Below, piece after piece: positions 20,067 to 34,331 of a DNA stretch of 34,331 nt. Both the position numbers and the translations under genes were made by a program. The number at the start of each line of letters is the position of its first letter. Positions within the stretch are counted from its first letter, which is position 1. The stretch is from an uncultured Flavobacteriaceae bacterium (GTDB lineage Bacteria > Bacteroidota > Bacteroidia > Flavobacteriales > Flavobacteriaceae): assembly GCA_937937185.1 (NCBI GenBank), contig CALDCO010000089.1:1-34331 (forward strand). The letters run 5' to 3'. Below the pieces are notes generated by a model. It was not told the origin of the DNA and did no database searches. It saw only the letters and a program-made list of their open reading frames with translations.

Positions 20067-23000
20067 TTGGATACAGAAATTTCTAGTGTATATAAATCTA
20101 TTACCCAATACAGTGTACTAATTATCCTTTTATTAGTTTCCTTTACTGTTTTTGGGCAAGATCCAGACAATGACGATCCTACAAATACAGCTTTTAGTTT
20201 GGGTAAACTAGAAATGCCTAACCCTAATAGTATAGAATCTAAATACAGTTACGACCCATTTTCAGACCGTTATATATACACTGAAAGTGTTGGCGATTTT
20301 AATATTAATTATCCTGTAATATTAACGCCTGAAGAGTATCAAGACCTAGTTCTAAAAGAGAATTTAAAATCCTATTACAAAGATAAAATTGATGCCACTA
20401 ATGACAAGAAAGGCGATGGCGAAGAAAAACAAAAAAACCTCTTACCAGATTTTTATGTTGATTCTGATTTCTTTGAAAGTATCTTTGGCGAAGGGCCTAT
20501 AAATATTGTTCCGCAAGGTTCTATTGAAATGGACTTAGGATTATTGTATACAAAACAAGATAACCCTTCTTTTTCACCTCGAAATAGAAGTAATATTTCT
20601 TTCGATTTTCAACAGCGTATCAGTTTAAGTTTACTAGGAAAAGTAGGATCGCGCTTGCAAGTTACAGCAAACTATGATACACAATCTACTTTTGATTTTC
20701 AAACCCTAGTGAAATTAGAATATACCCCTACCGAGGACGATATTATCCAGAAAATAGAAGTTGGTAATGTAAACATGCCTTTAAATAGCTCACTTATTAC
20801 AGGGGCACAAAGTTTATTTGGGGTAAAAACGCAGCTTAAGTTTGGTAAAACAACTGTAACTGGGGTGTTTTCCGAACAGCGATCAGACACCCGAACAGTG
20901 GTTGCTCAAGGTGGTGGAACTCTAGAAGAATTTGATTTTTTTATTAGAGATTACGACGAGAATAGACACTTTTTCCTAGCACAATATTTTAGAGAAAACT
21001 ATGATGAAGCACTATCTAACTATCCATTTATAAATACAAACATTCAAATTACTAGAGCAGAAGTTTGGGTAACCAATAGAAGTAATCGTACAGAGAATGT
21101 TAGGAATATTGTCGCTTTTCAAGATATTGGGGAATCTGATCGATTTGGAAACCCTGCAGTGATCTCTATTTCAGGTCCTGGCGCTTTTCCAGATAATGGA
21201 AATAACCAGTTAGATCCTACTAATATTGGTATGGCAGGTTCTCAATTAACAGAAGCCGTTAGAGATATTGCAACGGTTCAAGCTGGGGTTTTAGTGCCTG
21301 GAGCCAATGAAGGTTTCGATTTTGCTAAACTGGAAAATACTAGAAAATTAACCGAAGGACAGGAATATACATTAAACCCGCAATTGGGATACATTTCTTT
21401 AAACCAGCGATTAAATAATGATGAGGTTCTTGCAGTTGCATTCCAATATACGGTTGGTGGCGAGGTCTTTCAAGTTGGAGAATTTGCTAATGATGGTGTA
21501 AACTCTACCGATGTCGATACGGGTTCGGAAGGCGAAGTTGTTACCGTTTCTAATAATGCATTAATTCTTAAATTATTAAAAAGTAGTATTACAAGCACCT
21601 CACAGCCGGTATGGGATTTAATGATGAAAAACATATACAATACTGGTGCTTATCAATTAAGTCAGGAAGATTTTAAACTTAATATATTTTATAACGAATC
21701 CACACCTTTAAATTTTATCACGCCAGTTGGTGCTAGTTTTGGAATGGAATTTAATGGCAATCCCATTCAAGAAACCACTTTATTAAAACTGTTTAATTTA
21801 GACCGTTTAAATTTTAATAACGATCCGCAAACTAATGGCGACGGATTTTTCGACTTTGTACCTGGCCTTACGGTGATTCCTCAAAATGGAAAAATAGTCT
21901 TTACAAAAGTAGAACCCTTTGGACGTTATCTTTTTGATGTTTTAGTAGATCCTGCAACGCCTACTAATTATGATGATGAAGTTTACTTGAATGAAAACCA
22001 AGAAAAGTACGTCTATGATTTAATGTATAAGCAAACTAAAACTCAAGCATTAGACGAAATCGAAAAAAATAAATTTCAAATAAAAGGCCGTTATAAATCT
22101 GAAGGTGGCGAGGGCATTCCTATAGGTGGTTTCAATGTCCCTCGAGGTTCTGTAAGAGTTACCGCTGGGGGAAGACTTTTAGTAGAGGGCGTAGATTATA
22201 CCGTAAATTACCAATTAGGAAGGGTTCAAATTTTAGATGAAGCCTTAAGAGCATCAAATACACCAATAGAGGTATCTACCGAAAACAACTCCATTTTTGG
22301 GCAACAATCAAAGCGTTTTACAGGATTAAATGTCGAGCATCAGTTTAACAGAGATTTCTTAATAGGCGCTACTTTTTTAAATTTAAAAGAACGACCAATT
22401 ACTCAAAAGGCAGATTTTAACCAAGAACCTATCAACAATACGATTTTTGGGATAAATGGGAACTATTCTTCAGAAGTTCCCTTTTTAACGCGTTTAGCAA
22501 ATAAACTACCAAATATAGATACCGATGCACCTTCAAATTTTTCCTTTCGAGGAGAATTTGCCTATTTATTGCCTGGCTCTCCTAATGGGACTGACTTTAA
22601 TGGCGAGGCAACGTCGTATATCGATGATTTTGAAGGGACTCAAAATGGTATTGATTTAAAATCGGTATTGCCCTGGACGCTATCCAGTAGGCCGTTAAAT
22701 GTTAATGGTACTAATATGTTTGACGTTAGTGGTATTACCAATGGCTACGGAAGAGCTTTATTAAACTGGTACACCATAGATCAAACCTTTTTTAGTAACC
22801 GAAGACCAGACGATATAAGTGACGACGACATTTCAAGTGTGTATACCTCTCGTGTTTTTATAGACGAATTATTTCCGCAGCAAGACATTGCGCAAGGACA
22901 AACCACCGTATTAAACACATTAGATTTGGTGTATTATCCAGAAGAACGTGGCCCTTATAATTTTGATGAGGCGAATACCAATGGCGATGTGATTACTAAC

Positions 23001-26000
23001 CCTAGTGAATCTTGGGCTGGGATTACAAGAGAAATAACAGCAACAGATTTTGAGCAAGCAAATGTGGAGTATATCGACTTTTGGCTGCAAGATCCGTTTT
23101 TAGAAAATCCCGCGAATACAGGGGGAAAACTAGTTTTTAATTTAGGAAGCATTTCCGAAGACATCCTTAGAGATGGGCGCAAGCAATATGAAAATGGACT
23201 GCCTGCCGATGGTAATGCGTCATTATTACCAACAACAGATTATGGTACCGTAGTTCCACAAAACCAATCTTTAATTTACACGTTTGATACCACTGGAGAC
23301 GAAAGAACGAATCAAGACGTTGGTTTTGACGGTTATAACAATGCAGAGGAAGCCGCTGCTTTTCCGGCATTTAGTACTTTACCAGATCCTGCAAGAGACG
23401 ATTATCGTTTTTTCTTAAATGGCGAAGGCGGTGTTCTAGAACGTTACAGAGAATACAATGGTACCGAGGGAAATTCCCCAGACGCGTTTTCTGATACCGA
23501 TAGGGGGGCAACAACGCAACCTGATGTAGAAGATGTAAATCGAGATAATACCATGAATACTATTGATAGTTATTTTCAATACGAATTAGAAATTACTCGT
23601 CAGAATTTACCATTAAATAGTTTAGATGAGATCACGCCAACTAATCCTATAGGCGAGTTCTTAAATGATTTTAAGATTAGAACACGGGTTTTAGAAAATG
23701 GTGACGCAGAAACAGTGCGATGGTATCAATTTAGAGTTCCAGTAAAAGGCGATCATGTAGAAGCGGTTAATGGCATAACCGATTTAAGATCCATTCGTTT
23801 TGTTAGAATGTTTTTAAATGGCTTTTCAGATCCTACAATATTACGATTTGGTACTTTAGAACTCGTACGTAGCGATTGGAGACGTTATACTTTGGCATTA
23901 GATGAAGGCGATGCGACACCAGACGATCCGCAAACAGATTTTGCTGTGGGTGCAGTGAGCACACAAGATAATGATGGGAGTTATGCTTCTCCACCTGGTG
24001 TAGATCCTGAGCAACAAAATAACAACAACACCGTAGTACGTTTAAATGAACAAGCTTTAGTGGTAAACGTTTGTAATTTAGAAGCTGAAGATTCCAGAGC
24101 AGTTTATAAAAATATAGATGTAGACATGCGTCAATTTAAGCGCTTAAGAATGTTTATGCATGCTGGTGAAGGCGATAAGCCAGGGCTTGATACTGACGAG
24201 CTAGTTGGTTTTATTAGAATAGGAAATGATTTAACACAAAATTACTATCAAGTAGAAGTGCCTTTAACGGTCTCAACTGGCACCTCTCGTGAAGAACTAT
24301 GGCCTTCACAGAATGAAATCGATTTAAGATTAGAATTATTGCAGCAAATAAAATCTTTAGGAATTGATAATGGAACACTAGCAAACCCCGTACCTACATT
24401 TTATGATGTTGATGATAATGGCTCATTAAGCGATGCTCCAGTGCCTGAATTTTCAGATTATGAAGGGGTTAGTCAGCGTATTGCCATTAAAGGAAACCCT
24501 AATTTTGGGGCTATAAGAACCTTAATGGTTGGGGTTAAAAATAGAACACCAGATGATAATGGCTTATGTGGTGAGATTTGGTTTAATGAATTACGTTTGT
24601 CTGACATGGATAACGAAGGCGGTTGGGCAGCTGTAGCGGCTTTAGATACGAATTTAGCCGATTTTGCTAATGTAAGTGCCACAGGGCGTATGAGTACTTC
24701 TGGATTTGGCTCTATAGAGCAAGGGCCTAATGAAAGAAGCCGAGAAGATGTTCAGCAATACGATGTGGTTACTAATGTAAATGTAGGGCAATTGCTACCA
24801 AAAAAATGGGGCATACAAATTCCATTTAATTATGGTCGTGGGGTCGAGTTAATTACACCTGAATACGACCAGCAGTTTAAGGATATCGAATTAGATACAC
24901 GGCTGGAAACCGCTGAAAATAATGAACAAAGAGATATAATTAAAGAGCAATCTGAAGATTTTACTAGGCGGCAAAGTATCAACTTTATTGGCGTGCGTAA
25001 AAATAGAACGGGAGAGAGCAAGCCTCATTTTTACGATGTCGAAAATTTTACTGCTAACTATTCGTACAATAAGGTAGACCATCGCGATTTTGAAATTGAA
25101 AACTCTACAGATAAACAAGTCACTGCTGGACTTAATTATGCCTATAATTTTGATCCTAAATCCATAGAACCTTTTAAGAAAAACGACTCCTTATTTACAG
25201 GAAAATATTGGAAACTTTTAAAGGATTTTAATTTTAATCCGTTGCCTGCAAGTTTTTCGTTAAGTTCTAATCTTAATAGGCAATTTAACAAACAGAAGTT
25301 TAGAGATATCGATCTTGGCGGAGACAATATTGCGATTGAAGAGCTGTTTAGAAGAAACTATACATTCGATTTCCAATATAATTTTAATTGGAACTTAACA
25401 AGCGCCCTTCAACTTAATTATTCTGCAGCTAATAATAACATTGTACGAAACTATTTTATAGACGATCAACTTAATGGTCTACAAGATCCTACATTAGACG
25501 TATGGGATGGGTTTTTCGATTTTGGTGATCCCAATAGGCAGTATCAACAATTGGGTGTTAATTATGAATTGCCATTAAATAAAATACCTATTTTAAACTT
25601 TTTAAAAGCAACGTACTCTTATTCTGGGGAGTTTCAGTGGCAAAAAGGCTCAGATTTATTTGGAAATATAGATGGTTTTAATCTTGGTAATTCCGTTTCA
25701 AATGGCAATACGCAAGCCTTAAATACAACCCTAGATATGAATAAGTTTTATAAGATAATAGGACTTAAAAAGAAAAGGGGAAATGCCAGAGTAGCAAGTA
25801 GGCCAGTAGGAAGAGGTACCCCACCAGATGCCAAAGCAGATAAAAAGAAAGCCAAGCCAAAGAAAAAAGGAAAAGGTTCTAAATTAGGAAATACGGCTGT
25901 TGGAATTTTAACCATGGTAAAGCGTATTCAAGCTAACTACACAGAAAATAATGGCACATTTTTACCTGGTTATCTCAACACACCAGGCTTTATAGGAACT

Positions 26001-27272
26001 TTAAAACCCACACTAGGCTATACTTTTGGAAGCCAGAGAGATGTTAGGCAACTGGCGGCCCGAAATGGTTGGTTAACCTTATTTCCTGAATTTAATCAAC
26101 AATATACCTCTAATTTAACACGTCAGTTAGATGTTTCGGCAAGTATAGAACCGTTAAAAGATTTAAAAATAGACGTTATTGGTTTTAGAACTTATGCCGA
26201 AAACTTTACAGAAAACTATAGAGTCGATAATAATGCTGGAGATTTAGAATACGTGCCATTAACCCCTAATACTTTTGGTAATTATGGCATTTCTACCTTT
26301 ACATTGCCTACAGCTTTTAGTAGAAGTGATGAAACAAGATCTGAAACATTTGAAACATTTAGTGATAACCGTTTAATTATTGCAAGGCGCTTAGCCTTCC
26401 AAAATGGAGTAGATTTTACCAACCCTAATAATTTTGATGCCGATGGTTATCCAAAAGGATTTGGCAGAACTAGCCAAGCCGTACTATTACCAGCTTTTAC
26501 TAGTGCGTATTCAGGGCAAAAAGCAAATCGAATAAACTTAGATGTTATAAAGGACATTCCTATCCCAAATTGGGATTTAAAATACTCGGGTTTTATGAAG
26601 TTAAAATGGTTTAAAAAGCGATTTAAGCGATTCTCTTTAACCCATGGGTATCGTTCAAGTTACACCATTAACCAATTTAGAACCAATTTAGATTTCCAGT
26701 CTATCGATTTTAGTAGAGATTATTTTTCGCAACCTGCAGACGCTCTAGATCAAGCTGGAAATTATAAAAACGAAGAGCTCTATAGTAATGTTAATTTAGC
26801 TGAAATGTTTTCGCCATTGGCTCGAATAGATTTTGAAATGAAAAATTCGGTTAAGATACTTACAGAAATCAAGAAAGACCGTTTGTTGTCTTTAAGTTTC
26901 GATAATAATTTACTTACAGAAGTTCAAGGTTTAGAATACAGAATTGGTGTAGGCTATCGTTTTAAAGATGTGCGGATAAGGACAAAATTAGCAGGGCCTA
27001 AAAAATCGGTTGTTAGTGATTTATTAATGGAGTTAGACGGTTCTGTAAGAGACAATAAAACCATTATTCGTTATTTAGACATAGAGAATAACCAAATTAC
27101 TAACGGGCAAACAATTTATGGGCTAAATTATAAAGCCAACTATTCATTTAGTAAAGCCCTAACTGGTATTTTCTATTTTGATTATTCCTTCTCAGAATAC
27201 GCGATATCAACGGCATTTCCTCAAACAACAATACGGTCTGGAATTACTTTAAAATATAACTTCGGAAACTAG
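20067..27272 (+). CDS. sprA: T9SS outer-membrane translocon / gliding motility protein SprA (Sov)
   Basis: SprA forms the giant (36-strand) outer-membrane beta-barrel through which T9SS cargo leaves the cell; it is needed for secretion and gliding. The 2401-residue length fits. A TTG start is the only plausible one: the frame is closed by a stop 6 nt upstream (TTG then codes MDTEISS), and the signal peptide follows at once (SVLIILLLVSFTVFGQ, cleavage near residue 31). Family segments include DLGLLYTKQDNPSFSPRNR, SLLGKVGSRLQVTANYDTQS and the C-terminal strands ending ITLKYNFGN. A Lys/Pro/Gly-rich stretch at about 1900-1940 (KADKKKAKPKKKGKG) falls where I recall a similar basic insert in other SprA proteins. 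It is translationally coupled to ruvA; gcvH downstream has its own promoter. Confidence 0.97.
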   Translation: MDTEISSVYKSITQYSVLIILLLVSFTVFGQDPDNDDPTNTAFSLGKLEMPNPNSIESKYSYDPFSDRYIYTESVGDFNINYPVILTPEEYQDLVLKENLKSYYKDKIDATNDKKGDGEEKQKNLLPDFYVDSDFFESIFGEGPINIVPQGSIEMDLGLLYTKQDNPSFSPRNRSNISFDFQQRISLSLLGKVGSRLQVTANYDTQSTFDFQTLVKLEYTPTEDDIIQKIEVGNVNMPLNSSLITGAQSLFGVKTQLKFGKTTVTGVFSEQRSDTRTVVAQGGGTLEEFDFFIRDYDENRHFFLAQYFRENYDEALSNYPFINTNIQITRAEVWVTNRSNRTENVRNIVAFQDIGESDRFGNPAVISISGPGAFPDNGNNQLDPTNIGMAGSQLTEAVRDIATVQAGVLVPGANEGFDFAKLENTRKLTEGQEYTLNPQLGYISLNQRLNNDEVLAVAFQYTVGGEVFQVGEFANDGVNSTDVDTGSEGEVVTVSNNALILKLLKSSITSTSQPVWDLMMKNIYNTGAYQLSQEDFKLNIFYNESTPLNFITPVGASFGMEFNGNPIQETTLLKLFNLDRLNFNNDPQTNGDGFFDFVPGLTVIPQNGKIVFTKVEPFGRYLFDVLVDPATPTNYDDEVYLNENQEKYVYDLMYKQTKTQALDEIEKNKFQIKGRYKSEGGEGIPIGGFNVPRGSVRVTAGGRLLVEGVDYTVNYQLGRVQILDEALRASNTPIEVSTENNSIFGQQSKRFTGLNVEHQFNRDFLIGATFLNLKERPITQKADFNQEPINNTIFGINGNYSSEVPFLTRLANKLPNIDTDAPSNFSFRGEFAYLLPGSPNGTDFNGEATSYIDDFEGTQNGIDLKSVLPWTLSSRPLNVNGTNMFDVSGITNGYGRALLNWYTIDQTFFSNRRPDDISDDDISSVYTSRVFIDELFPQQDIAQGQTTVLNTLDLVYYPEERGPYNFDEANTNGDVITNPSESWAGITREITATDFEQANVEYIDFWLQDPFLENPANTGGKLVFNLGSISEDILRDGRKQYENGLPADGNASLLPTTDYGTVVPQNQSLIYTFDTTGDERTNQDVGFDGYNNAEEAAAFPAFSTLPDPARDDYRFFLNGEGGVLERYREYNGTEGNSPDAFSDTDRGATTQPDVEDVNRDNTMNTIDSYFQYELEITRQNLPLNSLDEITPTNPIGEFLNDFKIRTRVLENGDAETVRWYQFRVPVKGDHVEAVNGITDLRSIRFVRMFLNGFSDPTILRFGTLELVRSDWRRYTLALDEGDATPDDPQTDFAVGAVSTQDNDGSYASPPGVDPEQQNNNNTVVRLNEQALVVNVCNLEAEDSRAVYKNIDVDMRQFKRLRMFMHAGEGDKPGLDTDELVGFIRIGNDLTQNYYQVEVPLTVSTGTSREELWPSQNEIDLRLELLQQIKSLGIDNGTLANPVPTFYDVDDNGSLSDAPVPEFSDYEGVSQRIAIKGNPNFGAIRTLMVGVKNRTPDDNGLCGEIWFNELRLSDMDNEGGWAAVAALDTNLADFANVSATGRMSTSGFGSIEQGPNERSREDVQQYDVVTNVNVGQLLPKKWGIQIPFNYGRGVELITPEYDQQFKDIELDTRLETAENNEQRDIIKEQSEDFTRRQSINFIGVRKNRTGESKPHFYDVENFTANYSYNKVDHRDFEIENSTDKQVTAGLNYAYNFDPKSIEPFKKNDSLFTGKYWKLLKDFNFNPLPASFSLSSNLNRQFNKQKFRDIDLGGDNIAIEELFRRNYTFDFQYNFNWNLTSALQLNYSAANNNIVRNYFIDDQLNGLQDPTLDVWDGFFDFGDPNRQYQQLGVNYELPLNKIPILNFLKATYSYSGEFQWQKGSDLFGNIDGFNLGNSVSNGNTQALNTTLDMNKFYKIIGLKKKRGNARVASRPVGRGTPPDAKADKKKAKPKKKGKGSKLGNTAVGILTMVKRIQANYTENNGTFLPGYLNTPGFIGTLKPTLGYTFGSQRDVRQLAARNGWLTLFPEFNQQYTSNLTRQLDVSASIEPLKDLKIDVIGFRTYAENFTENYRVDNNAGDLEYVPLTPNTFGNYGISTFTLPTAFSRSDETRSETFETFSDNRLIIARRLAFQNGVDFTNPNNFDADGYPKGFGRTSQAVLLPAFTSAYSGQKANRINLDVIKDIPIPNWDLKYSGFMKLKWFKKRFKRFSLTHGYRSSYTINQFRTNLDFQSIDFSRDYFSQPADALDQAGNYKNEELYSNVNLAEMFSPLARIDFEMKNSVKILTEIKKDRLLSLSFDNNLLTEVQGLEYRIGVGYRFKDVRIRTKLAGPKKSVVSDLLMELDGSVRDNKTIIRYLDIENNQITNGQTIYGLNYKANYSFSKALTGIFYFDYSFSEYAISTAFPQTTIRSGITLKYNFGN

Positions 27273-27337: not shown

Positions 27338-27718
27338 ATGAATATTCCTTCAGAATTAAAATACACTAAAGACCACGAATGGGTTAGAATAAATGGCGAA
27401 GAACTCACCGTTGGTATTACCGATTTTGCCCAAAGTGAACTGGGAGATATCGTTTACGTAGAAGTAGAAACACTAGATGAAACCTTAAATGCAGATGAGG
27501 TTTTTGGAACTGTAGAAGCGGTAAAAACAGTATCTGATTTGTTTTTACCTGTTTCAGGAGAGATCATTGCTTTTAATGAGTTGCTTGAAGACGAACCCGA
27601 AAAAGTAAATACTGATCCCTATGGCGACGGATGGATGATAAAAATTAAAGCTTCAGACCTGTCTGAATTTGATAATTTACTTTCTGCCAATGATTATAAA
27701 GCCTTAATTAGTGCTTAA
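27338..27718 (+). CDS. gcvH: Glycine cleavage system H protein
   Basis: GcvH is the lipoyl-carrying shuttle of the glycine cleavage complex, passing the aminomethyl group between the P and T proteins. The 126-residue length is normal. The lipoylation site is Lys63 in FGTVEAVKTVSDLF. Other signatures are YTKDHEWVR near the N-terminus and NTDPYGDGWMIKI (about 91-103). It has its own promoter and overlaps the next gene by 8 nt, so translation of the two is coupled. The position directly after sprA is conserved in flavobacteria. Confidence 0.98.
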   Translation: MNIPSELKYTKDHEWVRINGEELTVGITDFAQSELGDIVYVEVETLDETLNADEVFGTVEAVKTVSDLFLPVSGEIIAFNELLEDEPEKVNTDPYGDGWMIKIKASDLSEFDNLLSANDYKALISA

Positions 27719-28079
27719 AAAAGGACTAGTAGTTGTTAGTAGCTTTTATAGTTTAGCATTAGCAATTTTAAGTTTAATAAATATTAATGGTAAACTTCCA
27801 CCAATAAAAAACAGTGATAAGTTATATCATGCCATCGCCTATTTTATTTTTACAGGCTTATGGTATTTTACTTTTTATTTTACATTTGAATTTAAAAAAA
27901 ATAAAGCATTAGCATTTGCTTTTATTGCTTCAGCTTCCTTTGGAATTATAATAGAAATTCTTCAAGGTATTCTCACTGAAAACAGAGAAAGTGATGTGTA
28001 TGATGTTATTGCCAATACGGTTGGAACCATTTTGGCATTATTAATGATGATTATAATAAAAAAAAGAGACGTTAAATAG
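27711..28079 (+). CDS. VanZ-like membrane protein
   Basis: This 122-residue integral membrane protein has about four hydrophobic segments (residues about 5-22, 42-60, 67-88 and 98-117). The NSDKLYHAIAYFIFTGL and FGIIIEILQGILTENRESDVYDVIANTVGT segments match VanZ-like proteins. The name comes from a teicoplanin-resistance gene; most family members, including this one, have no shown role in resistance. It starts with GTG inside the last codons of gcvH (8-nt overlap), where the upstream coding sequence leaves little room for another start. It is followed by tonB after 69 nt. Confidence 0.88.
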   Translation: MLKKGLVVVSSFYSLALAILSLININGKLPPIKNSDKLYHAIAYFIFTGLWYFTFYFTFEFKKNKALAFAFIASASFGIIIEILQGILTENRESDVYDVIANTVGTILALLMMIIIKKRDVK

Positions 28080-28148: not shown

Positions 28149-28871
28149 ATGGAGCCAAAGAAGAATCCCAAATCAAATGTAGGACGGAACAGTTCTTTAT
28201 ATTTTGCTGTAGGTTTAGCATTAATGTTGTTTTTAACTTATTATGCTATAAATTATAAAACCTACGACAAACAAGCGATCGATATAGGGCAACTTAATTT
28301 AGATGATGAGTTGGAGGAAGAAGTGCCAATTACTGAGCAATTAGTAACACCGCCACCACCGCCACCGCCACCACCTGCAGCTCCAGAAATTATTGAAGTT
28401 GTTGAAGATGAAGAAGAGGTTGAAGAAACAGTAATAGAATCTACAGAAACGACGCAAGAAGAAGAAATTGTTGAGGTTGAAGAGGTTGAAGTAGAGGAAG
28501 TGGAAGAAGATGTTGAAGTTGCTTTCGCGGTTATTGAAAACGTACCTGTTTTTCCAGGTTGTGAAGGCGGCGATAATAATGCCAAGAAAAAATGTATGAA
28601 CAACAAAATCAAGAAATTTGTTGGTAAAAAATTTAACACAGATTTGGCCTCAGATTTAGGTTTATCGGGGGTACAAAAAATTAGTGTCTTCTTCAAAATA
28701 GATAAAACAGGAGATATTGTAGATATTAAAGCCAGAGCGCCGCACCCAAGATTAGAGGCAGAAGCAAAACGTATTACAAACCTGTTACCAAAAATGAAAC
28801 CAGGTAGACAACGTGGAAAAGCGGTAAGAGTACCTTATTACTTACCTATTAAATTCCAAGTACAAGACTAA
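28149..28871 (+). CDS. tonB: Energy transducer TonB (acidic linker)
   Basis: TonB links the inner-membrane ExbBD motor to outer-membrane receptors. The 240 residues show a short cytoplasmic N-terminus, one membrane anchor (about 17-34), a nine-proline run near 68-76, an extremely acidic linker (about 83-124, almost all Glu/Val/Asp) and a C-terminal TonB domain (about 130-240). That domain opens with the flavobacterial PVFPGCE motif; Cys138 and Cys149 could form a disulfide. The segment VFFKIDKTGDIVDIKARAPH is the beta-alpha core and FQVQD the last strand. No exbB or exbD gene lies nearby. A strong terminator follows. It is a paralogue of the next gene. Confidence 0.93.
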   Translation: MEPKKNPKSNVGRNSSLYFAVGLALMLFLTYYAINYKTYDKQAIDIGQLNLDDELEEEVPITEQLVTPPPPPPPPPAAPEIIEVVEDEEEVEETVIESTETTQEEEIVEVEEVEVEEVEEDVEVAFAVIENVPVFPGCEGGDNNAKKKCMNNKIKKFVGKKFNTDLASDLGLSGVQKISVFFKIDKTGDIVDIKARAPHPRLEAEAKRITNLLPKMKPGRQRGKAVRVPYYLPIKFQVQD

Positions 28872-28896
28872 ATTGTAAGACATTCATAATATAATT

Positions 28897-28928
28897 AAAA
28901 CCCCGTTGTAAACTTACAGCGGGGTTTT
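28897..28928 (+). terminator. Terminator after first tonB gene
   Basis: AAAACCCCGTTGTAA pairs with TTACAGCGGGGTTTT with a single G-U wobble and a short loop, then a T run. It is 25 nt past the stop codon, so the second tonB gene is probably transcribed separately. Confidence 0.9.
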
Positions 28929-28987
28929 TGGTTTTGGTATGCTTATTGTTATTTCTTCATAACATTAACATTTAAACATAAATTATT

Positions 28988-29794
28988 ATGAAACATTCAA
29001 ACGAAAGTCGCCATCTCGTTCGCCAAAACGAGACTGTTGCGCAAAAATCACAAAAGCACGATGTAAATTTACAAAAAAACTCAACACTGTATTTTCAGGT
29101 TGGGTTAATCGTATGTCTATTAGCCAGCTATGCGGGCTTAGAAATGCGTTTTGAAAAAACGATAGCTACTTATACAGATGATACTGTAATGCTAGAGGAA
29201 GATGCCGAGTTTGCTATGGGAACTTTTAAAGTTTATAAAGACCCAGAAGTAGAGGTAAAGCCTAGGGTTAAAAAACGAACGGCCATTATTAAGAACAAAA
29301 TTAAAGTTGTTGAAAACGATTATAAAGAATTAGATAATGCTTTAAAACTTGTTACAGAGGTGCCAACAGTAACTACTAAAACAATATTAAAAGAAGATGA
29401 TAAAGTTTTGGATATAGAGAAACCAGAAGTACCAGTGAGTATATTGGTGGTTCAAAAAGTACCAGTATATCCTGGTTGCGAGAGCGCAAAAAATAATGAT
29501 GAAAGAAGAAAATGCATGTCGCGTAAATTAACGAAGCATATTCAAAGAAAATTTGACTCAGATTTGGGCTCAGAACTAGGTTTATCTGGCGGTAAACACC
29601 AAATTTATGTTAGTTTTAAAATTAATAAACAAGGAGAAGTAGAAGTTTTAAGAACAAGAGCGCCGCACCCTCAATTAGAAAAAGAAGCGCATCGTGTCAT
29701 TTCAAAAGTACCAAAAATGCAACCTGGAATAAATGATAAAAAAGCAGTAGATGTATTATATACCGTGCCTATTAAATTTCAGGTAAACGATTAA
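28988..29794 (+). CDS. Energy transducer TonB paralogue (basic linker)
   Basis: This 268-residue paralogue of the preceding gene has a longer basic N-terminal tail (about 1-32), one membrane anchor (about 33-50), a linker and a TonB C-terminal domain (about 152-268). The linker lacks a proline run and contains a basic block (KPRVKKRTAIIKNKIKV, about 91-107), opposite in charge to that of its neighbour. The C-terminal domain aligns closely with the first TonB: PVYPGCE, then SDLGSELGLSG, VSFKINKQGEVEVL, RAPHPQLE and PIKFQVND. Cys164 and Cys176 match the neighbour's pair. Terminators on both sides point to its own transcript. A duplication followed by linker divergence is the simplest origin. 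Confidence 0.92.
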   Translation: MKHSNESRHLVRQNETVAQKSQKHDVNLQKNSTLYFQVGLIVCLLASYAGLEMRFEKTIATYTDDTVMLEEDAEFAMGTFKVYKDPEVEVKPRVKKRTAIIKNKIKVVENDYKELDNALKLVTEVPTVTTKTILKEDDKVLDIEKPEVPVSILVVQKVPVYPGCESAKNNDERRKCMSRKLTKHIQRKFDSDLGSELGLSGGKHQIYVSFKINKQGEVEVLRTRAPHPQLEKEAHRVISKVPKMQPGINDKKAVDVLYTVPIKFQVND

Positions 29795-29821
29795 GTATAT
29801 TATCGTATTCTAAAACAAAGA

Positions 29822-29849
29822 AAAGCCAGTATCGAATGATACTGGCTTT
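29822..29849 (+). terminator. Terminator after second tonB gene
   Basis: AAAGCCAGTATC pairs perfectly with GATACTGGCTTT around a GAAT loop, with A and T flanks, 28 nt past the stop codon. Confidence 0.9.
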
Positions 29850-29940
29850 GTATATTTCAGTAATAATAAAATTAAATGTATATTAGATTAGGTTTACGCC
29901 ATTTTAAATTAAAAACCAATGTTCGGTATAAGGATTTAGT

Positions 29941-30110
29941 TTGAAAAAGCCGTCAAATTGAGTGATTTTTCACAGTAAAACGAAGAAAAATCGTATAGAA
30001 ATTAGGCTTTTTATTTAAAATTTATTGGTCTTCGATACCATTTTCTATCGAATATCATTTAGATTGCTGGAAATTTTCTTATGTCGAACTCGCATTAAAA
30101 AAGTATCATA
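29941..30110. repeat. Probable degenerate dispersed intergenic repeat
   Basis: The stretch contains CCGTCAAATTGAGTGATTTT, then GATTTTTC/GAAAAATC arms (29964-29971, 29985-29992), TTCGATA/TATCGAA arms (30031-30037, 30046-30052) and a GTCGAACTCGCATTA end. This combination resembles a repeat often seen between genes in marine Flavobacteriaceae. It fills most of the gap before remB, where no gene is visible. The identification is from memory. Confidence 0.4.
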
Positions 30111-30125
30111 AAAAATACAACATTT

Positions 30126-32261
30126 ATGAGGTACTACATTTTAGGGATTTTACTTTGTTTTTTACAGCCAGCCTTGGCTCAAGAGACCAACCAATACGAG
30201 AAAAGTCCTATTTTTGAAGCCTGTGAAAATGAACCCCTTAAAACCCTTCAAAATTGTTTTTATAAAGAAGTTTATGCGTTGTTATTTAGTGAGTTTAAAA
30301 TGCCTCAAAGACTAATTGAGGAAAATTATAAAGGGATAATGGATGTGCTCTTTGAAGTGAATACAGAAGGTGAATTTAAAGAGATTTATACAGATACTAA
30401 TTATGAGGAGATAAAAACCGAAGTAAAGCGAGTCTTTAAAACCTTCCCTAAGGTAAAACCAGCCACTTATAATGGACAAAAAACATTTAAACAATATACT
30501 ATAAAACTGAGGTTGCCCTTACAAGAAATATGGCCTTCAACAGAAAACTTACCCGAGGTGAATAGTGATGATGAAAAGACGAAATCTAAAATTGAAATAG
30601 AATTAACGCAGCTTGAAAAAAATGCAAAAAAAGAATTCGATAAGGTTCAAAAAGGAATAAAACCCTATACTAACAAGGCTTTTAATAGTACATTAAACAT
30701 TCCTTTTACCCATGCCGATTATGCAAAATTCGACCGCTCTTTAAATGTAGTGGGCACTAATAGCCATACGGCTTCTAAACCATTCTTATACGAAGACATT
30801 TCTAATTATTATGATTTTAATGCCGTGAAAGAGGCCTTAATTAAAGACGCTGGAACTTGGGTAGAGAAAAAATTATGGAACGAACACTTAGTACAAATAG
30901 AAAGTAAAGATTACTGGTTTACGTTAGACCCTATTCTCGATTTGCAAGTAGGAAGGGACACCGATGCCGATTTTCGATTAACCTTTAATAATACTAGAGG
31001 GGTATATATACAAGGAGGTTTAGGGAAACAATTAAGCTTTTCTACTTCAATATACGAAAGTCAGGGGCGTTTTGCAGATTATTACAATCGCTATGCAGAA
31101 ACTCTAGCGCCTGCCGATTTTAGCCCGGCCATTATTCCTGGTAGAGGGATTGCAAAACGATTTAAAGAAAACGCGTTTGATTATCCGGTTGCAGAAGCAT
31201 ATTTATCCTACTCGCCAGCAAAATATTTAAATGTACAATTTGGGCATGGAAAGAATTTTATAGGCGACGGATACCGCTCTTTATTATTAAGCGATGTTGC
31301 CAGTCCGTCCCCATTCTTAAAACTAAATACAAAATTCTGGAAAATAAAATATACCAATACCTGGATGTGGCTAAAAGATGTAAGGCCAGAAGTTATAGAA
31401 GACGGAGCTTTTTTAACAAAATACATAGCCAATCATTATTTGAGCTGGAATGTAAACAAACGATTAAATATTGGTTTATTCGAATCTGTGATATGGCAAA
31501 ACAGTAACGATCGCGGGTTTGATATTAATTATTTAAACCCTATTATTTTCTATAGAGCTATTGAGTTTGAAACCGGTCAAGATGCTGGTAATGCTATTAT
31601 AGGCTTGTCTTCAAAATATAAGTATAATGACAATATTAACATATACGGGCAGTTTATTATTGACGAATTTTCACTTTCGGACATTACAGGAGGAGAAAAA
31701 AGTTGGAAGAATAAATTAGGGTTTCAGTTAGGCGCAAAATACTTTAATGCGTTTAAGGTGAAAGACCTTCAATTGCAAATGGAATATAATCAAGTTAGAC
31801 CGTATACCTATTCCCATAATACGATTGTACTTAACTATGCCCACAATAACCAATCGTTAGCCCATCTCTGGGGCGCAAATTTTAGAGAGTTGCTTTTAAT
31901 AGGGCGTTATAATTACAAGCGTTGGTTTGGAGAAGCTAAATTTATTACAGGGATTAGAGGGTTCGATTTTAATACGGATACCGATTCGTTTAGTTACGGC
32001 GGAGATGTTTTTGCCAGTGAACGCGATAGGCCATTTGAAACCGGTGTAGAAATTGGACAGGGGATAAAAACCAATACCTTTAATGCTACGCTTCAAGCGG
32101 GGTATTTAGTTAATCCAGCTTCTAATTTAAAAGTATTTACAAATATTAATTATCGCAATTTCGACCCAGAGGCTACCACAATCTCTACTTTTGTAAACAG
32201 TTCGATTTGGTTTAATTTTGGTGTAAGAACCGATTTGTTTAATTGGTATTTTGATTTGTGA
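30126..32261 (+). CDS. remB: RemB-like gliding protein: TonB-CTD-like N-terminus plus Wzi-type outer-membrane barrel
   Basis: This 711-residue outer-membrane protein has a signal peptide (about 1-18, CFLQPALA). Residues about 26-132 look like the TonB C-terminal domain of the two genes before it: SPIFEACE, a second Cys 11 residues on (Cys33, Cys44), then VLFEVNTEGEFKEIY, EVKRVFKTFPKVKPATYNG and a last strand ending in RLPL. A Lys/Glu-rich linker (about 145-175) follows. From about 185 to the end is a beta-barrel related to Wzi/capsule-assembly proteins (LNVQFGHGKNFIGDGYRSLL, YLNPIIFYRAIEFETG), ending FGVRTDLFNWYFDL. The overall layout fits proteins annotated as gliding motility protein RemB in flavobacteria. 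The exact role is unknown; the symbol rests on resemblance only. Confidence 0.75.
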   Translation: MRYYILGILLCFLQPALAQETNQYEKSPIFEACENEPLKTLQNCFYKEVYALLFSEFKMPQRLIEENYKGIMDVLFEVNTEGEFKEIYTDTNYEEIKTEVKRVFKTFPKVKPATYNGQKTFKQYTIKLRLPLQEIWPSTENLPEVNSDDEKTKSKIEIELTQLEKNAKKEFDKVQKGIKPYTNKAFNSTLNIPFTHADYAKFDRSLNVVGTNSHTASKPFLYEDISNYYDFNAVKEALIKDAGTWVEKKLWNEHLVQIESKDYWFTLDPILDLQVGRDTDADFRLTFNNTRGVYIQGGLGKQLSFSTSIYESQGRFADYYNRYAETLAPADFSPAIIPGRGIAKRFKENAFDYPVAEAYLSYSPAKYLNVQFGHGKNFIGDGYRSLLLSDVASPSPFLKLNTKFWKIKYTNTWMWLKDVRPEVIEDGAFLTKYIANHYLSWNVNKRLNIGLFESVIWQNSNDRGFDINYLNPIIFYRAIEFETGQDAGNAIIGLSSKYKYNDNINIYGQFIIDEFSLSDITGGEKSWKNKLGFQLGAKYFNAFKVKDLQLQMEYNQVRPYTYSHNTIVLNYAHNNQSLAHLWGANFRELLLIGRYNYKRWFGEAKFITGIRGFDFNTDTDSFSYGGDVFASERDRPFETGVEIGQGIKTNTFNATLQAGYLVNPASNLKVFTNINYRNFDPEATTISTFVNSSIWFNFGVRTDLFNWYFDL

Positions 32262-32538: not shown

Positions 32539-32587
32539 GGTACTACATTTTGGGGATTTTACTTTGTTTTTTACAGCCAGCCTTGGC
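32539..32587 (+). repeat. 49-bp partial copy of remB 5' coding sequence
   Basis: Positions 32539-32587 match 30130-30178 at 48 of 49 bases (A to G at 32552), in the same orientation. The source encodes YYILGILLCFLQPALA, the RemB signal peptide. In the copy this frame can begin at a GTG (32526) and runs only to about 41 codons. The plus-strand ORF track entry at 32480-32683 reads the copy in another frame and is not a gene. Confidence 0.92.
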
Positions 32588-32694: not shown

Positions 32695-34331
32695 CTATTT
32701 TTTTATTAAACGTTTATTCACTTCTCTATCGCTTATTTTTATCTTAATAAAATAAATACCCTTATTATAATTCTCGAAATTGATTTGTTTTAAATTATTT
32801 TTCTTATTGAGTAATAATTGACCAGTTACATTAAATAAAGATACACTTTCAATTGCTGCATTATTTTCTGTTTTAATAGTTAAAATATTTCTAACAGGAT
32901 TTGGATATAAAACAACTGTTTGATTAAGTAAATTATGTTCGGTAATATCCAATGTATTTACTATTTCTGTCTCTACACTATTGGTTACTATTGCTGCATT
33001 GAAATCGAAATAGATATTAGCTGAATTACCATTTATTATGTCTCCTATCCCAACTCCGCTTTTAGGTTTAATTTTAAAGGCTATAAAGCCAATACTACCA
33101 GCATCATCATCTTGCATAGCTGGAAGATTGATACCTTCAAAAGAAAATTCTAAAAAATCACCATTAATAGATCTAAAACTGTAAGGATGACTAGAAGAAA
33201 CAGGTCGCAATGTTCCCCAGTCTAAATTATTAGTTAAATTATCTGTAATTACCACATTTATGGCACTAGCCGTTCCTGTATTTTGAAAACGTATAATATA
33301 GTCTAAATAGTTTCCTGCCTCTTCTAATCTAATTTCATCGCCTTGTAACACAAGTTTATCATTAGGATCGTAAGAATTTACTACTATTTGCTCTAAATTA
33401 AATATATTATCGTTAGGATATGCATCTCCAACGGTTGGATTTATAACTGCTGTAAAATTTAAAACGTCATCGCTATTTACTATTGGTGGTGGAAACGTAT
33501 TCATCTCAATATTAATCGTTTTAATTTCAAAAGGCTGTAAATTAGTGTAATTAAAGATTATTGTATTTGATGAGCTACTAGTCTCATTAGGTACAGCATT
33601 TACAAAATTTTGAAAAGCACTATCAAATGTAAGTGTAATATCTCCACTTACTGGCAGTACACCTCTATTTTCATAAACCAATTGGTAGTTAGTATTAAAA
33701 CCAGGACGCGCTTCTCTTAATGGTAGTAAAGTAATATTTACATCGTTAATATTTTGATTAGGATTAATACAAAAATCTGCTGTTTCTGTATTACCAAAAC
33801 TTGTAAAAGTATCTATAATTGAAGCTGGATTAGTTGTTATATAACTTGGCATATTTTGGATTGAAGTTTCATAAGTATTCTCTACAACATCCATAGCATA
33901 AAAACCGGAACTATTCGTAAATGTTCCAAATTCGTTAGTCCCATCTGTAGTTTTTACAAGTTGGTTAGCCAAAATAATATCGCTTGGATCGCAACCGTTA
34001 CTTTCGTCGTCGTAAGTTAATGTTCCCTGAAGAGTGTTGTAGTTAACATTTGTTACACTACAATCTTCTGTAAAAACTATTTGTGGATCTATCTCTTTAA
34101 AATTCACAATAGCATAATCTACATTGTCTACACATATAGTTTCAAGGTTTGGATTATTTTTAATTTCAAAAATAGGAAATAACCCAAACTCATCTCCAGA
34201 ATTAGTAACAACCAGAATAGATGACTCATTGAATATAGTATTATTAGTATTTTTTAAATTAACACTTTCAAGATGAATATTATCTTTAATATTTATCTGA
34301 AAGAGATATTGATTATTTATAAGATTTATAT
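32695..34331 (-). CDS. T9SS type A cargo protein, DUF7619-like, 5' end outside window
   Basis: The ORF track begins at an internal GTG (34107), but the frame stays open to the window edge and reads LRR-like sequence (LETICVDNVDYAIVNF), so the gene is partial and starts beyond 34331. The order in the visible part is: tail of leucine-rich-like repeats; a carboxypeptidase-regulatory-like module (about 24-115 of the tracked ORF: GTFTNSSGFYAMDV); beta modules; a DUF11/DUF7619-like domain (NSYDPNDKLVLQGDEI, YLDYIIRFQNTGTASAINVV, NGNSANIYFDFNAAIVTN); and a type A T9SS sorting domain (YPNPVRNILTI, LFNVTGQLL, YNKGIYFIKI). It is therefore exported by the T9SS to the cell surface, probably as an adhesin or binding protein. 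No terminator with a T run is seen in the 430 nt beyond its stop. Confidence 0.9.
   Translation of the reverse strand, partial: INLINNQYLFQINIKDNIHLESVNLKNTNNTIFNESSILVVTNSGDEFGLFPIFEIKNNPNLETICVDNVDYAIVNFKEIDPQIVFTEDCSVTNVNYNTLQGTLTYDDESNGCDPSDIILANQLVKTTDGTNEFGTFTNSSGFYAMDVVENTYETSIQNMPSYITTNPASIIDTFTSFGNTETADFCINPNQNINDVNITLLPLREARPGFNTNYQLVYENRGVLPVSGDITLTFDSAFQNFVNAVPNETSSSSNTIIFNYTNLQPFEIKTINIEMNTFPPPIVNSDDVLNFTAVINPTVGDAYPNDNIFNLEQIVVNSYDPNDKLVLQGDEIRLEEAGNYLDYIIRFQNTGTASAINVVITDNLTNNLDWGTLRPVSSSHPYSFRSINGDFLEFSFEGINLPAMQDDDAGSIGFIAFKIKPKSGVGIGDIINGNSANIYFDFNAAIVTNSVETEIVNTLDITEHNLLNQTVVLYPNPVRNILTIKTENNAAIESVSLFNVTGQLLLNKKNNLKQINFENYNKGIYFIKIKISDREVNKRLIKK

Follow-up and report, generated by a model that had tools for sequence, protein, structure and literature searches.

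Why does remB, a gliding gene of the Flavobacteriaceae, sit with tonB genes, and what do its product and theirs have in common? RemB is needed for gliding in Flavobacterium johnsoniae. The question is raised by a 34,331-nucleotide stretch of DNA from an uncultured Flavobacteriaceae bacterium (assembly GCA_937937185.1, contig CALDCO010000089.1; here called the window), in which two tonB genes, tonB1 and tonB2, are followed on the same strand by remB. A first-pass annotation, made from the letters of the window, had proposed that the three proteins share a Cys-paired domain resembling the C-terminal domain (CTD) of TonB and that in RemB this domain comes right after the signal peptide, on an outer-membrane barrel. 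Sequence comparison and structure prediction uphold this view: RemB appears to be an outer-membrane barrel with a TonB_C domain at its N terminus.

Every motif quoted in that proposal was present. TonB1 contains PVFPGCE, a second Cys 11 residues later, VFFKIDKTG, and PKMKPG; TonB2 contains PVYPGCE, a second Cys at +12, VSFKINKQG, and PKMQPG; and RemB contains PIFEACE (with Cys33), Cys44 at +11, VLFEVNTEG, and PKVKPA. By BLASTP, residues 25 to 134 of RemB matched TonB1 and TonB2 with E values of 2e-5 and 3e-5, respectively, and when RemB was used as the query against 121 genomes of the family, other TonB_C proteins were matched through approximately the same residues, with E values down to 1e-10. 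A hidden Markov model (HMM) of the TonB CTD recovered all 76 recognised RemB proteins (E values of 1e-20 to 4e-8) from 5,718 open reading frames (ORFs), half of them reversed decoys, and matched none of the decoys. When the N-terminal profile of RemB was aligned with a TonB CTD profile by hhalign, the probability was 99.2% (E value of 3.3e-19, 109 columns); reversed profiles and five barrel segments, which served as controls, scored just 0.1 to 8.7%. Cys33 and Cys44 are invariant in 51 of 51 RemB sequences, as is Gln19, the residue directly after the signal peptide, and no CTD of the neighbouring TonB proteins has the first Cys without the second. The two Cys residues of RemB would be expected to form a disulfide that stabilises the domain.

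A coincidence of short motifs might be suspected, since the window RemB fell below the Pfam TonB_C cut-off (E value of 0.055, 14.4 bits, with a cut-off of 24.6). The reversed-profile, barrel-segment, and reversed-ORF controls nevertheless rule coincidence out, and as the profile, fold, and decoy-controlled HMM searches are concordant, we give it virtually no credence. The Pfam model itself matched 36 of the 51 RemB orthologues (E value of 1 or lower), the best at 3e-7. Identity between the RemB domain and TonB CTDs is only about 19 to 20%. A sequence search of the PDB with the domain profile as the query returned unrelated proteins only; with the full RemB profile as the query, no relative was found.

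AlphaFold2 modelled residues 19 to 138 of RemB from a 51-sequence alignment with a predicted local distance difference test score (pLDDT) of 92.6 and a predicted template modelling score (pTM) of 0.84. Rather than an unrelated fold, the model adopts the alpha-beta-beta-alpha-beta fold of a TonB CTD: in a Foldseek search of the PDB, TonB CTDs took all of the first 15 places, the top match being 6i97_D (TonB bound to FoxA; E value of 3.5e-4, TM-score of 0.72 on the target), and several of the matches were TonB CTDs solved in receptor complexes. By sequence comparison and modelling, RemB residues 25 to 133 are confirmed as a predicted TonB C-terminal domain (TonB_C, PF03544) with an invariant Cys pair.

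The full-length model gives the order of signal peptide, domain, linker, helices (residues 162 to 251), and about 18 strands, with a pLDDT of approximately 80 to 90 in the domain and below 50 in the linker (residues 136 to 159) (Table 1). RemB has neither the inner-membrane anchor nor the CTD-last layout of TonB energy transducers, and the signal peptide and barrel topology suggest that its domain lies in the periplasm. The predicted barrel resembles OccD, AlgE, and Wzi; among the matches listed, Wzi (2ynk) gave the highest TM-scores (0.40/0.60), and AlgE also scored high. RemB matched no Pfam plug or TonB-dependent receptor family, and neither TIGR04183 nor TIGR04131, meaning that it has no sorting domain of the type IX secretion system (T9SS), unlike other window proteins, which do match T9SS sorting-domain models.

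Table 1. Positions in the window of tonB1, tonB2, remB, their domains, and conserved upstream neighbours (aa, amino acids)
Feature	Position	Strand	Description
tonB1	28149..28871	+	240 aa; N-terminal membrane anchor, Pro/Glu-rich spacer, C-terminal TonB_C (PF03544 E 1.2e-6)
TonB1 TonB_C domain, Cys pair	28530..28868	+	
tonB2	28988..29794	+	268 aa; N-terminal membrane anchor, C-terminal TonB_C (PF03544 E 7.3e-9)
TonB2 TonB_C domain, Cys pair	29438..29791	+	
remB	30126..32261	+	711 aa; predicted outer-membrane barrel, TonB_C-like domain N-terminal
RemB signal peptide	30126..30179	+	residues 1-18, then Gln19
RemB TonB_C-like domain	30198..30524	+	residues 25-133; Cys33 30222-30224, Cys44 30255-30257
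RemB variable linker	30525..30686	+	residues 134-187
RemB periplasmic helical region	30687..30890	+	residues 188-255; common to domain-less homologues
RemB barrel	30891..32258	+	residues 256-711; about 18 predicted strands
sprA/sov	20067..27272	+	T9SS outer-membrane translocon; TIGR04189 E 0; conserved neighbour, upstream
gcvH	27338..27718	+	PF01597; conserved neighbour
vanZ-like gene	27711..28079	+	PF04892; conserved neighbour

Where did the domain come from? Barrel homologues were surveyed in 295 genomes of the class, and other families of the order were also covered. Homologues outside the Flavobacteriaceae, most of them 530 to 580 aa long, align only from model position ~150 to 190 or later, and both the late start and the predominant ORF length were the same in the other families of the order. 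In these proteins, whose lack of the domain the first-pass annotation had missed, the signal peptide runs directly into a motif that starts near RemB residue 190. Of 20 loci that were inspected, 4 have the domain-less homologue immediately upstream of cyoE-cox. This is the position of remB itself and speaks for positional orthology of the two. A WecA-type glycosyltransferase gene (PF00953) accompanies the homologue in 10 of the 20, and other loci contain CapD-like, sugar transferase, UDP-sugar dehydrogenase, and epimerase genes. The barrel is best explained as a member of a class-wide, polysaccharide-associated, Wzi/AlgE-like family, on which the TonB_C domain was probably gained once, specifically in the Flavobacteriaceae; multiple losses are formally possible, but a single gain needs far fewer events. 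All RemB domains fall into a single clade (support of 100/100), separate from TonB. The view that the domain was copied from the adjacent tonB was discarded, the grouping of RemB with TonB being rejected (approximately unbiased test, p-AU of 9e-5).

The domain is under purifying selection. In comparison with the nearest relative (L035), its ratio of nonsynonymous to synonymous substitution rates (dN/dS) was 0.18; the linker gave 0.62 and the barrel 0.034. All three values are rough, with synonymous sites near saturation. The domain measures 109 residues in 49 of 51 sequences; the linker, 36 to 56 aa among orthologues, is poorly conserved. That the domain is less conserved than the barrel (0.65 versus 0.81) could be taken to mean that it is a functionless relic of a fusion with the upstream tonB, but its low dN/dS, its fixed length, a Cys pair kept in all sequences across many genera, and the lack of any support in the tree for a tonB copy make such a relic very improbable.

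The first-pass annotation had also suggested a survey of tonB-tonB-remB across the family. Eighty named remB loci were retrieved, and Cys-type tonB genes were counted in the 72 (L106, L108, and L110 included) that had more than 3 kb of sequence upstream of remB. Two such genes precede remB in 61 loci, one in 8, three in 1, and none in 2, so the arrangement does recur. The usual gene order is sprA-gcvH-vanZ-tonB1-tonB2-remB. sprA was found upstream of remB in nearly all loci with sufficient sequence, those of Flavobacterium included, and in 71 of 77 loci cyoE-coxIII comes no more than about 6 kb after remB. Among the 121 family genomes, RemB is present in 79, sprA in 119, and gldJ in 116. Only three Cys-type TonB domains besides that of RemB were found in the genome to which the window belongs; the third TonB, of 398 aa and with a very long Ala/Glu/Lys spacer, is encoded on contig C33 (L117, 252-1848) directly behind exbD. 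In Lacinutrix himadriensis (L100, 9953-12087), remB is split over two frames near the domain, through either a frameshift or an assembly error.

What, then, might a TonB-type domain do on this barrel? The CTDs of TolA and TonB bind their targets by beta-strand addition (PMC12204202), and a docking module is for this reason the natural reading. We consider it about an even prospect that the domain is a tethered periplasmic docking module, coupling the barrel to a putative Ton-type or T9SS/gliding partner. Hanging into the periplasm on a flexible linker, it would contact a periplasm-spanning partner by beta-strand addition or CTD-CTD contact. Candidate partners are a TonB-family transducer or a T9SS/gliding component encoded at the same locus, and the cell wall may also be named. 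A surface barrel that is probably polysaccharide-binding would thereby be tied to force transmission or positioning in gliding.

Several observations weigh against a docking role of this kind. In two tonB-less Flavobacterium loci, deoC (identified by eye) replaces tonB, and the RemB domain is retained. In genomes without RemB, sprA-gcvH-vanZ-tonB is kept in 9 of 10 informative loci and is followed by cyoE (one locus, L226, was left out of the comparison, its region being on the wrong side of sprA); because tonB stays at sprA in these loci, the linkage of tonB to sprA is independent of remB. Both findings weaken the first-pass proposal that the barrel could pair with the adjacent TonB proteins. 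RemB is missing from 42 of the 121 genomes, while sprA is nearly always present, and RemB is therefore not a core part of the T9SS. Three genomes of one Flavobacteriaceae genus (g122; G221, G341, and G185) have few or no full-length Cys-type TonB domains, and in G221 the best match to the Cys-type profile is RemB itself, with Cys-less TonB proteins still present. Lastly, the full-length RemB model is merely moderate (pLDDT of 71), and the barrel matches no Pfam family by sequence, Wzi included.

The CTD of Escherichia coli TonB binds peptidoglycan. The RemB domain could instead be a passive anchor that fastens the barrel to peptidoglycan or a periplasmic scaffold and transmits no force. A wall anchor, too, would be expected to sit N-terminally on a linker of variable length, and retention of the domain where no tonB adjoins remB also favours it. 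On the other hand, the closest structures are TonB CTDs, domains that bind protein strands and that in several of these entries were solved in complex with a receptor, and Pfam detects no peptidoglycan-binding family in RemB; we regard passive anchoring as unlikely. Alternatively, the domain could act as a decoy or regulator that imitates TonB and competes with TonB1 and TonB2 for the TonB boxes of receptors, a role that would suit a fold and Cys pair identical in kind to those of the neighbouring CTDs. The low identity to TonB CTDs and the separate clade argue against imitation, and a membrane-tethered competitor at one barrel would presumably be inefficient, making a decoy improbable.

That the domain might plug the barrel had been raised in the first-pass annotation. 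Its N-terminal position does recall the plug of TonB-dependent receptors, and it might fold back to plug or gate its own barrel. However, the linker's variable length, poor conservation, and very low pLDDT, together with the finding that domain-less homologues keep both the periplasmic helices and the barrel, disfavour plugging, which we hold to be quite improbable.

A layout that recalls the docking arrangement was found at loci of M56 peptidases (L235-L247), a non-random sample chosen via matches to the RemB domain. Here, M56 peptidases bear one to three C-terminal Cys-paired TonB_C domains; another M56 peptidase, of 731 aa (L217, 1084-3276, reverse strand), has three in tandem. Nearby, on the same strand, lies a gene for a solitary TonB_C protein of ~160 aa with a lipobox recognisable in most cases, and a secreted protein of ~380 aa is usually encoded between the two. 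The solitary proteins are predicted lipoproteins. Because these loci would repeat the layout of an inner-membrane and an outer-membrane TonB_C protein, we propose, as a speculation that is unlikely to hold, that Flavobacteriaceae have TonB_C domains at either membrane of the periplasm: an inner-membrane driver (TonB or M56 peptidase) would face an outer-membrane receiver encoded alongside (RemB or the solitary lipoprotein), and CTD-CTD contact instead of a TonB box would carry force or signal to the outer membrane. In the case of RemB, a gliding barrel that binds polysaccharide would be energised or positioned in this way. A special kinship of the RemB domain with the lipoproteins is not claimed. 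Tree support for it was 95/96, and 81/93 after trimming, but with three compact groups an unrooted tree shows only that TonB and M56 domains cluster, and profile scores give this kinship no preference.

Two further features lie 3' of remB in the window. Positions 32539-32587 hold a 49-bp, 98% copy of the start of remB (30130-30178, the signal-peptide region), and no such copy is visible around remB of the nearest relative. Farther downstream, a gene for a T9SS type A sorting-domain protein (32695-34329, reverse strand), broken off by the contig end, occupies the site usually held in relatives by cyoE.

In published work, remB (Fjoh_1657) is listed as an adhesin-like gliding gene four locus tags from sprA (Fjoh_1653), and a table groups RemB secretion with the Por system (PMC4572689). 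Two non-gliding Flavobacterium species keep T9SS genes but lack remA, remB, and sprB (PMC6801697). In the literature searched, which left most subscription journals outside, we met RemB in gene lists only and found nothing on a TonB_C domain. Our analysis re-types RemB, an adhesin-like gliding gene product with no mechanism in the papers found, as a predicted outer-membrane barrel with a lineage-specific TonB_C domain. It places a TonB-type domain on the receiving membrane, where the usual place is the inner-membrane side; it offers a reason why remB keeps company with tonB at the sprA locus; and it suggests that through the domain the barrel may be connected to periplasmic partners, either force-transmitting ones or the cell wall.

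F. johnsoniae RemB is alike in locus position, a comparison made by published locus tags and description; it was described as adhesin-like, whereas the window RemB is predicted to be an integral barrel that carries a TonB_C domain in the periplasm, and it lacks a T9SS sorting domain. Two Flavobacterium RemB proteins (L111 and L114) are 54 to 55% identical to the window RemB, with the same domain order. TonB energy transducers share the CTD fold, the Cys pair of the flavobacterial subtype, and the core motifs, but RemB has a signal peptide in place of the anchor, no proline-rich spacer, and the domain N-terminal to a barrel. Wzi is an 18-strand lectin in which a helical bundle plugs the periplasmic end (PMC3791409). 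RemB may resemble it, with helices and about 18 barrel strands predicted in the model of moderate confidence, and domain-less RemB homologues occur in polysaccharide loci; Wzi differs in having no sequence-family match to RemB and no TonB_C domain. The M56 (BlaR1-type) peptidases and their predicted lipoproteins likewise pair Cys-paired TonB_C domains encoded together, one on an inner-membrane protein, but there the partner is lipid-anchored where RemB is barrel-anchored, at a different locus and presumably for a different task. TonB-dependent receptors, with their plug and CarboxypepD_reg extensions, also carry a periplasmic N-terminal domain on an outer-membrane barrel; their barrel has 22 strands as against about 18, and while receptors bear the target of TonB, RemB bears the TonB-type domain itself.

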